From SAR92 clade bacterium H231 (lineage in GTDB: Bacteria; Pseudomonadota; Gammaproteobacteria; Pseudomonadales; Porticoccaceae): DNA of 64,000 bases. A model generated the notes under the pieces. The model saw only the letters and a list, made by a program, of their open reading frames with translations, did not search any database and was not told the origin of the DNA. The DNA is taken from positions 620,001 to 684,000 of the forward strand of contig JAOALC010000001.1 of assembly GCA_025153775.1 (NCBI GenBank), read 5' to 3'. The position numbers and the translations under genes were made by a program. Within the stretch, counting starts at the first letter, position 1. Every line of letters starts with the position of its first letter. Below, piece by piece: positions 29,568 through 39,806 of the stretch.

Positions 29568-30008
29568 TATTGAAAGGTAGTTTGAGTCTGTTCAGAATTT
29601 TGTGTGAGTCCTATAATCTTGAAAAGAGGAGAGACACATATCAAAGTAATCCGACTATAACAAAGCCCTGGAAGCCATTCAGATATAGCCACCTTAGTCA
29701 CCAAAATCTTGCCAAGGGCCACCTCTTCTCAAAACTTCCTTCATTGTCTATCAATCCTCCCTAGCCGTATTACCGGCTCAATCAAACCCAGCCCTCCAAA
29801 ATAATGCCTTTTGCGCGCCCCCAGACATTTTGCATTTGGGCCAGCGCACAGCCTGCCCCAAAAGTCTCTGCAACGCCCCCCTAAACAGCTACGCTTACCT
29901 TAGGCCCAAGCGTGCCTTGCCTCCGTTATTCCGCTCTGAAGACCAAACGTGCTCACGAGTTAAGTCAGCCCTCTAACTCCTTGTTGTTAACCAAACCAGG
30001 AGACTAAT
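29568..30008. other. Gene-poor region between SIR2 gene and 173-aa gene
   Basis: No convincing gene is seen in these 441 bp. A 64-codon frame at 29570-29764 has a poor start and no family resemblance. The plus strand becomes strongly C-rich between about 29740 and 29930, unlike both neighbours, but I found no clear terminator or repeat. Confidence 0.5.
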
Positions 30009-30530
30009 ATGCCCTCTCAAAACCTCGTGTCAGGTGTGCTAACTGACGAATCCCTTAACACCAACCTTGCAGCTATCAAGCAGTTAGAAAGTAGCATGGA
30101 TTTTTTAATCTCACTCAGCCCCGAGCAGCGCAAGCGCACCGCCAAACTGCGGGCTAACCATGTGGACTTTGTGCATCAGATGCGCGCGGTCTGCAACCAG
30201 AACCCAGACTTTTTACCGCGCCAGTTTGACCTTGCAGAATTTGACCGCGACGTGGCCCTAAGTACCCAGTTGGAACAGGTGGCCTCTGCCGTGACTCAGC
30301 TGGCTCAGCAAATAGAAGACACCATTTTGGGTGTGCGCAGTGATATGTATGTGAGCGCCCTGGAAGTCTATGGCTACCTTAAAGTAGCCAGAGAAGGCGA
30401 TGGCTTGGATGTTCACCGCCGCGAGCTGGGCCGCTTCTTTAAAAAGGGCAGCTCTGACAGCAGCCAAGATGAAGACATCATCACCGATATCGACACCATC
30501 ACCGGCGGCTTGCCCGGCCCGGCGCTCTAG
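30009..30530 (+). CDS. Hypothetical protein, helical, unknown family
   Basis: The 173-aa protein is acidic and largely alpha-helical with no signal peptide or membrane segment. It has a PEQRKRTAKLR segment near residues 38-48, a middle FDLAEFDRDV, and a long helix ending with YGYLKVAREG. It resembles a widespread family of ~170-aa bacterial proteins of unknown function that I cannot name. AGGAG lies 7 nt before the ATG, a strong ribosome-binding site. It ends about 40 bp before a 21-bp repeat array, and this adjacency is its most notable context. Confidence 0.65.
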   Translation: MPSQNLVSGVLTDESLNTNLAAIKQLESSMDFLISLSPEQRKRTAKLRANHVDFVHQMRAVCNQNPDFLPRQFDLAEFDRDVALSTQLEQVASAVTQLAQQIEDTILGVRSDMYVSALEVYGYLKVAREGDGLDVHRRELGRFFKKGSSDSSQDEDIITDIDTITGGLPGPAL

Positions 30531-30567
30531 GCTGGGCACTATAACCCTGTGTTGCATTACCCCAATG

Positions 30568-30905
30568 GCCATGTCGCGAGTATCAACAGCCATGTAAATG
30601 ATATGGCTGGCCATACAAATTACATAGCTGGCCATGTAACTTACATAGCTGGCTATGCAAAGAGTATGGCTGGCTATGTAAAGAGTATAGCTGGCTATGT
30701 AAAGAGTATAGCTGGCTATGCAAAGAGTATGGCTGGGGTATGAAAGTTACATAGCTGGCCATGTAAATTACATAGCTGACTATGCAAAGAGTATGGCTGG
30801 CCATGAAAAGAGTATGGCTGGCCATGAAAAGAGTATGGCTGGCTATGTAAAGAGTATGGCTAGGGTATGAAACTTACATAGCTGGCTATGTAAAGAGTAT
30901 GGCTT
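30568..30905. repeat. Array of about sixteen 21-bp tandem repeats with palindromic junctions
   Basis: Sixteen imperfect units (the first one degenerate) run head to tail; fourteen are 21 bp and two (30736-30757, 30863-30884) are 22 bp. At each junction an inverted repeat ATAGC-TG-GCTAT or its variant ATGGC-TG-GCCAT occurs, with G-T-type intermediates. Between junctions the spacer is either GTAAAGAGT-like (type A) or a palindromic ATGTAA-N-TTACAT-like form (type B). Two six-unit blocks (30631-30757 and 30758-30884, 127 bp each) repeat the order B-A-A-A-A-B. The 21-bp spacing equals about two helical turns, so the palindromes fall on one face of the DNA. It does not look like a CRISPR, since there are no unique spacers. 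Confidence 0.9.
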
Positions 30906-31071
30906 TTGTTGGGGGCTGTGCACTGGGCCCATCAGGTTTGTGCGCTGTTTCCTTGCTAGCCCAAAGTGCAGTTTTACAGCGCAGCCATTAATGCTTTACC
31001 AACATAAATTATGTAGAGTCCATCAGGAAAATCCATGCCTGACAGACTATGCTTAACCACAGGACACCAAT

Positions 31072-31593
31072 ATGCGTATAGGCGCAATGTCCACTAAAAC
31101 ACCACTGAGCTGCATGCCCAGCCACAGGGCAAGCCAATCAGAGATGCATGCTCAGGCGCCGGCCCAGGCTGGGGCCTGCGAGCTGGGCAACAATAAAACC
31201 CACTGCGCTGAGGCGCAGGCCAAGACAAGGCAGGACACAGAGATGCAAGATGCAACACACATTGCCACCCAAATACCCGACTGGTTGCGGCCCTTGCAAA
31301 AAACCATTGTCTGCGGCGCCGCGGCCATTATTGTCACCCTGGTGGCCGTACCTCTGTGGCTGTACGAAGAGGGCAAAGGCTCGCTGGTACGGCTGGAGCA
31401 TAAAATAGATAGCACCGCCACTAAGGTTGAGGCTATGAACAACGAAGTGCACCAATTAAAGAGCACCATGGTGCCCAGCAACGCCGCCCTAGACCAAAGG
31501 CTAATCAACCTGGAAGCCCAGGTAGACCACAGCGCTCAATCCATTAGCCGCGTCGAGGGCTCATTGGAAACAGTTATTTCGTTGTTGGAATAG
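31072..31593 (+). CDS. Hypothetical membrane-anchored coiled-coil protein
   Basis: The 173-aa protein has an extended polar N-terminus rich in Ala, Gln and Cys, one membrane segment near residues 78-98 (TIVCGAAAIIVTLVAVPLWLY), then a helical, probably coiled-coil region (HKIDSTATKVEAMNNEVHQL and onward) to the C-terminus. No family is recognised. AGGA lies about 9 nt before ATG 31072; a second in-frame ATG follows after five codons. It lies just beyond the 21-bp repeat array, facing the same way as the gene before it. Confidence 0.6.
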   Translation: MRIGAMSTKTPLSCMPSHRASQSEMHAQAPAQAGACELGNNKTHCAEAQAKTRQDTEMQDATHIATQIPDWLRPLQKTIVCGAAAIIVTLVAVPLWLYEEGKGSLVRLEHKIDSTATKVEAMNNEVHQLKSTMVPSNAALDQRLINLEAQVDHSAQSISRVEGSLETVISLLE

Positions 31594-39663: not shown

Positions 39664-39770
39664 CTGGCTGGCTGGATGGCGTTTTTTGCCTACCTGATAG
39701 GGGTACCGGCTTTCTGGGTTTATGGGTATATCATGATCTTGCTTTAGTCGGCTAACGTATGTTTGTGTCT

Positions 39771-39806
39771 GGTTTCTAAAATGGTTTCTAAAATGGTTTC
39801 TAAAAT
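39771..39806 (+). repeat. Three exact 12-bp tandem repeats at a gene start
   Basis: Three perfect copies of GGTTTCTAAAAT follow one another across the start region of the DUF885 gene. Because the unit is a multiple of three it adds Met-Val-Ser-Lys steps without shifting frame and provides alternative ATG codons at 39781 and 39793, before the ATG at 39808. Confidence 0.85.

Follow-up and report, generated by a model that had tools for sequence, protein, structure and literature searches.

A 21-bp palindromic array and the gene of an unnamed helical protein recur together in several bacterial groups

What is a regular array of palindromic units doing next to a gene without an assigned function? 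In the window, by which we mean the whole 64-kb stretch of DNA analysed here, such an array lies 3′ of the gene for a 173-aa protein. The features referred to below are as follows.

30568..30905, no strand assigned: array of 21-bp palindromic units (Tandem Repeats Finder core 30589-30904; palindromicity above the column-permuted null, p 0.02).
30009..30530, + strand: gene of the 173-aa protein, a divergent member of an unnamed helical family (24-38% identity to 66 relatives).
29806..30957, + strand: approximate block common to the second own-genome copy (C1 ~400.4-401.2 kb), from blastn segments and alignment.
29838..29864, no strand assigned: left arm of an inverted repeat around gene and array (27 nt, 78% complementary).
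30903..30929, no strand assigned: right arm of this inverted repeat, pairing with 29838..29864.

The head-to-tail array described in an earlier note on this DNA is real, since Tandem Repeats Finder (TRF) reports 15.0 copies of a 21-bp period at 30589-30904. Between 30603 and 30889, the palindrome claimed for each junction is present in 11 exact copies of ATRGCTGGCYAT and in one copy with a single mismatch; two further copies, at ~30729 and ~30856, are disrupted, and the local step there is 22 bp, not 21. The spacing of ATRGCTGGCYAT is 21 bp except for two 43-bp gaps, each with one disrupted unit inside. In the unit alignment, the core steps are likewise 21 except for two, and degenerate units at the edges step by 18-19 bp. 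With at most one mismatch, ATRGCTGGCYAT has 14 matches in the full 64-kb window against 2.1 expected (100 shuffles, largest 6). Each unit contains two palindrome centres, the TG centre already recognised in the earlier note and the centre of the GTAA-TTAC spacer. Elsewhere in the window, a perfect 12-bp direct repeat with 3.1 copies (TGGTTTCTAAAA) lies at 39770-39806.

The matched differences between palindrome arms had been taken as covariation. At the two variable arm positions of the 11 exact units, the pairs are A-T (4), G-C (3), A-C (2), and G-T (2), with a Fisher p of 0.57. Over all arm positions, Watson-Crick cells number 84 against 83.2 in shuffles, and changes on both sides number 7 against 6.9. 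The arm covariation in the window array is thus not significant.

A second array is present in the same genome at C1:400820-401170, 250 kb away, and is 86% identical over 351 bp. The blastn segments of the shared block start at window positions 29805 and 30218 and end at 29864 and 30956. The second copy keeps a short 5′ flank and the 3′ part of the gene (96% protein identity, residues 71-173), and the 5′ part of the gene is gone. The units are re-ordered between the two arrays. This second array argues against a collapsed or mis-assembled repeat, without excluding it. Exact matches to TATRGCTGGCYATG occur in the own genome in these two arrays only. A regulon of scattered sites was rejected, since exact matches to the degenerate 14-mer are confined to the two arrays. 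Outside them, 15 array 14-mers with one mismatch were found against 3 for a reversed control pattern, a slight excess.

Searched against a class sample of 369 genomes (own genome included), the window protein matched 12 places in 4 other genomes, and TRF found a 21-bp-period array near the gene at 9 of these 12 loci. A 7-row profile on a phylum sample of 398 re-found one class-sample genome and gave one marginal new match, and a 67-row profile on the class sample matched 5 others, two of them borderline. The borderline matches G104 and G404 have no 21-bp TRF array; a third borderline match is G499 (E 9.4e-4). Four closer members, aligned as the query against 84,980 species genomes, gave 107 relatives, of which 80 were kept. 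These belong to Lysobacterales, Betaproteobacteria, and Verrucomicrobia, and their hosts include Pseudoxanthomonas, Lysobacter, Luteimonas, Rhodanobacter, Tahibacter, Ralstonia, Burkholderia, Aquabacterium, Accumulibacter, Zoogloea, and Verrucomicrobia, among others.

At these loci, the gene and a 21-bp period are linked. Lags of 14-35 bp (22 lags) were compared in the two 700-bp flanks of the gene, with 74 stretches at least 850 bp away as controls. Lag 21 ranked first at 64 of the 80 relatives' loci against 11 of the 74 control stretches, counts that do not represent independent events, since many of the 81 loci (the 80 and the window) are related. In the control stretches, lags 24 (15) and 30 (13) outrank lag 21. 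Lag 21 led by more than 0.10 at 38/80 loci and in 1/74 controls. Seven extra loci (L109-L114 and L163), two of which, L112 and L113, repeat the genes of L024 and L097 from the set of 80 relatives, gave a clear lag 21 in four cases, a narrow one in L112, a tie with another lag in L163, and none in L110. By a stricter rule, 50 of the 81 loci have a clear array and 31 do not; in some of the latter the gene is near a contig end (L029, L033, L051, L085), and in others it is not. The 50 arrays contain 565 unit steps; a length of exactly 21 bp was measured for 462 of them, 22 bp for 50, and 20 bp for 20.

Of the 50 arrays, 24 are upstream of the gene and 26 downstream. On the protein tree, which left out proteins shorter than 125 aa or containing X, detected upstream arrays occupy the Ralstonia branch and two Lysobacterales branches, and downstream arrays are found elsewhere, including the window lineage. 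The detected side is uniform inside the main protein branches, and the side labels require 21 changes on the tree against 37.4 in shuffles. The idea that the array always follows homologues of the 173-aa gene thus holds for the linkage itself, which exceeds the controls, but not for the "always follows", given the upstream branches and the 31 loci with no clear array.

The window gene encodes a divergent member of an all-helical protein family that has no name. AlphaFold2 (AF2) predicts an all-helical structure with one 52-residue helix for both the window protein (mean pLDDT 84.3) and the L097 protein of Pseudoxanthomonas daejeonensis (mean pLDDT 89.5), and in Foldseek neither model matched the PDB at E ≤ 0.001 (best E 2.9 and 0.58, respectively). 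For annotation, the window protein was combined with 66 of the 80 relatives into a set of 67 members; the other 14 were left out of the family alignment as truncated, X-containing, or near-copies. Pfam gave no convincing family in this set (no model in more than 3 members, best E 0.0064), and each NCBIfam model was matched by at most 2 members (best E 0.0065). With PADLOC, the most widely matched model, found in 5 members, was a Cas3 model (best E 4.2e-5). A rescan of 10 chosen members gave one Cas3 match at E 0.032, and we read the Cas3 matches as probably due to chance. A sequence search of the PDB also gave no convincing match (best E 0.32). Among 18 chosen pairs, dN/dS was 0.04-0.35 in 17 and 0.59 in one, and these values indicate that the family protein is maintained by purifying selection. 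A second 173-aa ORF lies 3′ of the array at 31072-31593, with a weak ZapB match (E 0.00048, under the curated cut-off) and further weak matches to coiled-coil families.

The array and the 173-aa gene recur together in several bacterial groups, and we consider the chances about even that they are two parts of one unit, a cognate protein-array pair whose protein would multimerise on inverted half-sites, one per helical turn. The array would be a double-stranded DNA site with short half-sites in alternating (inverted) orientation, which at a spacing of ~10.5 bp would share one face of the helix. The small all-helical product of the adjacent gene may bind the half-sites in dimeric or multimeric form and line up along the array. 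Contacts between neighbouring protein subunits would set the 21-bp geometry, and the protein and the half-site sequence would drift jointly. Since the period is fixed and the sequence drifts, the subunit spacing seems to be the constrained quantity. That some arrays precede the gene and others follow it speaks against a simple operator and against a 3′ UTR element. The layout predicted in the earlier note, resembling a phased protein-binding array that belongs to no known class of element and adjoins a gene of unassigned function, is supported. Candidate roles of the complex are to anchor or organise a region of DNA, to control its own expression, or to maintain itself. A bolder version, possible but less probable, is an undescribed cis-trans module that spreads between phyla, in which a helical protein of new fold polymerises on an array of conserved geometry and fast co-evolving sequence, each copy being a private pair that organises or marks its locus.

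The comparison of the 50 arrays reveals what is kept and what changes. The unit sequence differs widely from locus to locus, and the period is constant. Palindromicity exceeds the column-permuted null (p ≤ 0.05) in most arrays tested, 31 of 50, and is not significant in the other 19. The common unit of 32 non-redundant arrays, after 18 of the 50 were dropped as near-duplicates, is a faint motif of approximately RRGCTCnnAGCYYnGCnnGC; unit rows with more than 6 gaps were left out of both tests. The shared-motif score is 1.65 against a null of 0.99 ± 0.03 (maximum 1.05 in 20 nulls; 12 restarts for the data and 4 for the nulls). Thus, of the palindrome and spacing whose conservation was in question, the relatives keep the 21-bp spacing but not the letters of the 12-bp palindrome.

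Arrays and proteins diverge together. Array similarity correlates with protein identity (rho 0.27, against at most 0.165 in 500 permutations), most strongly among closer proteins. Below 70% identity, rho is 0.22 with a highest permutation of 0.217, and below 50% identity it is 0.164, which is less than the highest of 500 permutations (0.205). In 15 of 17 chosen cross-species pairs with close proteins, array similarity is 0.64-0.93; the outliers are L057/L068 (83% protein identity, array similarity 0.38) and L097/L100 (86% and 0.47). Eight pairs of paralogues within one genome span array similarities from 0.24 to 0.90 (column-permuted mean 0.30).

Such outliers, with close proteins and unlike arrays, are what would be expected if the array were a satellite-like repeat in concerted evolution that merely accompanies a fast-spreading gene. 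Its units would arise by slippage and unequal recombination, and the gene would use only an ancestral array fragment, or nothing of the array. The fast turnover of the arrays, with units re-ordered between the two own-genome copies, and the 31/81 loci without a clear array also fit this explanation. However, neutral repeats should neither hold to a period of 21 bp in two phyla and in sequences unlike one another nor have a motif in common, and we regard a satellite as unlikely.

The distribution of gene and array raises the alternative of a small self-spreading element, with gene and array as its body and the array as a recombination or recognition site. In favour of mobility, a search of 55 other genomes around the window, 34 from its own genus, gave no homologue of the 173-aa gene; gene and array are doubled in the own genome, and the family matches 8 places in genome G228. 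Nor is any gene neighbour common to more than 6 of the 80 loci (largest cluster 6/80), where neighbours were clustered among themselves and Pfam was applied to six window neighbours only. Gene and array are often duplicated jointly. Several G228 copies lack the 5′ part and keep the array side, as in the second own-genome copy, and copy C105 keeps the gene part with no array. Among the G228 loci (L104-L108, L126-L130, L140), five copies share an identical internal stretch that breaks the reading frame. In these five, the second part begins behind a GGGGAGGT stretch. The split gene may now be two ORFs, or it may be dead yet still duplicated.

Against such an element, the ends of the G228 copies are ragged with differing boundaries, and terminal inverted repeats are not general. 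A flanking inverted repeat reaches z > 3 in just 2 of 49 loci, the window being one of the two, and a DNA transposon was rejected on these grounds, although the window itself has the inverted repeat. No transposase, integrase, or relaxase was recognised in the family protein by Pfam or NCBIfam. Two queries against 50,697 phage records and two scans of viral contigs gave no family match; among 72,556 plasmid records, two queries matched the same single record and a third query none. A self-spreading element is thus quite improbable. A relative annotated as a hypothetical protein lies on the Thiodictyon plasmid pTs417 (L163, 3001-3468), between a gene for a pyruvoyl-dependent arginine decarboxylase on one side and one for pyruvate kinase on the other.

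The same palindromes could act as RNA, with the array transcribed as a chain of hairpins that is bound by the protein or controls the gene, in a layout like that of type III toxin-antitoxin systems. The window array alone gives some reason for this, since it folds far above shuffles on both strands and better in sense (-155 versus -113 kcal/mol in antisense; z -11.3 versus -8.7; excess over shuffles ~-57 versus ~-42). Its G.T count is not raised (20 versus 20.6 in shuffles). Matched changes are also in small excess: pooled over the 50 arrays, changes on both sides number 265 against 220 ± 10 in shuffles that ignore the relatedness of units, and 15 chosen array pairs have 27 compensated changes against ~16 expected. 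This modest excess is compatible with a symmetric DNA-binding partner, and one-sided changes in the same pairs outnumber compensated ones by 197 to 27.

Selection for sense hairpins should give more G.T than A.C and better folding in sense, and neither holds family-wide. In 4094 arm cells of the 50 arrays, G.T occurs 396 times (412 expected) and A.C 381 times (388 expected), and the one-sided changes of the 15 pairs include 54 G.T and 52 A.C. The folding excess is better in sense in 20 of the 50 arrays (Wilcoxon p 0.34, 20 shuffles each). The side of the gene on which the array lies also differs between branches. Rfam gave no match at E ≤ 1 in window 27-34 kb, and at gathering scores it gave two matches in 12 further loci, neither on the array. 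Since the strands do not differ across the 50 arrays, the RNA-hairpin chain offered as an alternative in the earlier note is disfavoured, and we judge a structural RNA to be quite improbable as well. The two Rfam matches lie in the flanks of L036 (658-742) and L054 (1295-1384) and are to sRNA-Xcc1 and C4 antisense RNA.

That the array codes for repeated heptapeptides, similar to PARCEL elements, is hardly credible and was rejected: 21 bp equal 7 codons, 44/50 arrays have an end-to-end open frame when insertions in the unit alignment are left out, and 43/50 raw arrays are open against 27 expected from base shuffles, but stops, at least 3 per frame, occur in all six frames of the window array. 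A period-preserving null gives 40.0 ± 2.6 open arrays, so that 44 is not clearly commoner, open frames number 39 on either strand, and 22-bp units break the frame.

The proposed cognate protein-array pair can be compared with known systems. In plasmid centromeres (ParR/parC and the omega/parS heptads), iterons, and the met boxes of MetJ, arrays of iterated binding sites lie beside the gene of their binder. The present unit resembles them in combining a small protein gene with tandem, short, partly palindromic, and helically phased sites. In contrast to them, it has no recognised partner ATPase or Rep protein, is mostly chromosomal, occurs in several unlike copies in some genomes, and does not conserve its site sequence. 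No known DNA-binding domain was recognised in the family protein. In hhalign, the 67-member profile gave a probability of 0.2% (E 0.23) against 8 RHH_1 ribbon-helix-helix domains, two of which are identical, and one of the 67 members matches PF21432 (56B_RHH) at E 0.16; membership of the ribbon-helix-helix class was rejected on the profile. An iteron with a Rep protein was rejected, since no initiator family is among the Pfam and NCBIfam matches listed for the 67 members.

Type III toxin-antitoxin systems of the ToxIN kind also have one protein gene with a tandem-repeat array close by. The present arrays differ from them in lying on either side of the gene, in their 21-bp palindromes, in the all-helical models, and in the lack of family-wide selection on an RNA strand. 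The ToxN-like fold is beta-rich; an endoribonuclease of this fold was rejected on the two AF2 models, both predicted to be all helix and with no PDB match at E ≤ 0.001. REP/BIME elements with REP-associated transposases are palindromic repeats linked to a gene, as is the array. However, the present repeats are tandem and mostly of exactly 21 bp, their own-genome copies are confined to the loci of the gene, and the protein has no transposase match.

The nearest idea is that of PARCELs, which differ in unit length and coding nature. They have 75-nt units that code for 25-residue repeats inside ORFs (PMC2996958). As with the present arrays, their tandem palindromic repeats have a patchy distribution suggesting horizontal transfer, whereas the arrays here have 21-bp units and show no coding sign by stops and frame tests. 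No description of a unit of gene and 21-bp array was found in the open-access literature searched. No described class fits the features tested.

What emerges is an unannotated protein family tied to a DNA element with a 21-bp rhythm. Since the letters of the array change and the rhythm persists, ordinary similarity searches are unlikely to see the element. The unit is small and self-contained, with one gene and one array in two phyla, and is thus directly testable. If the protein does line up on the array, the family would offer a large natural set of co-evolved pairs of protein and DNA, with selection acting on geometry and not on sequence.
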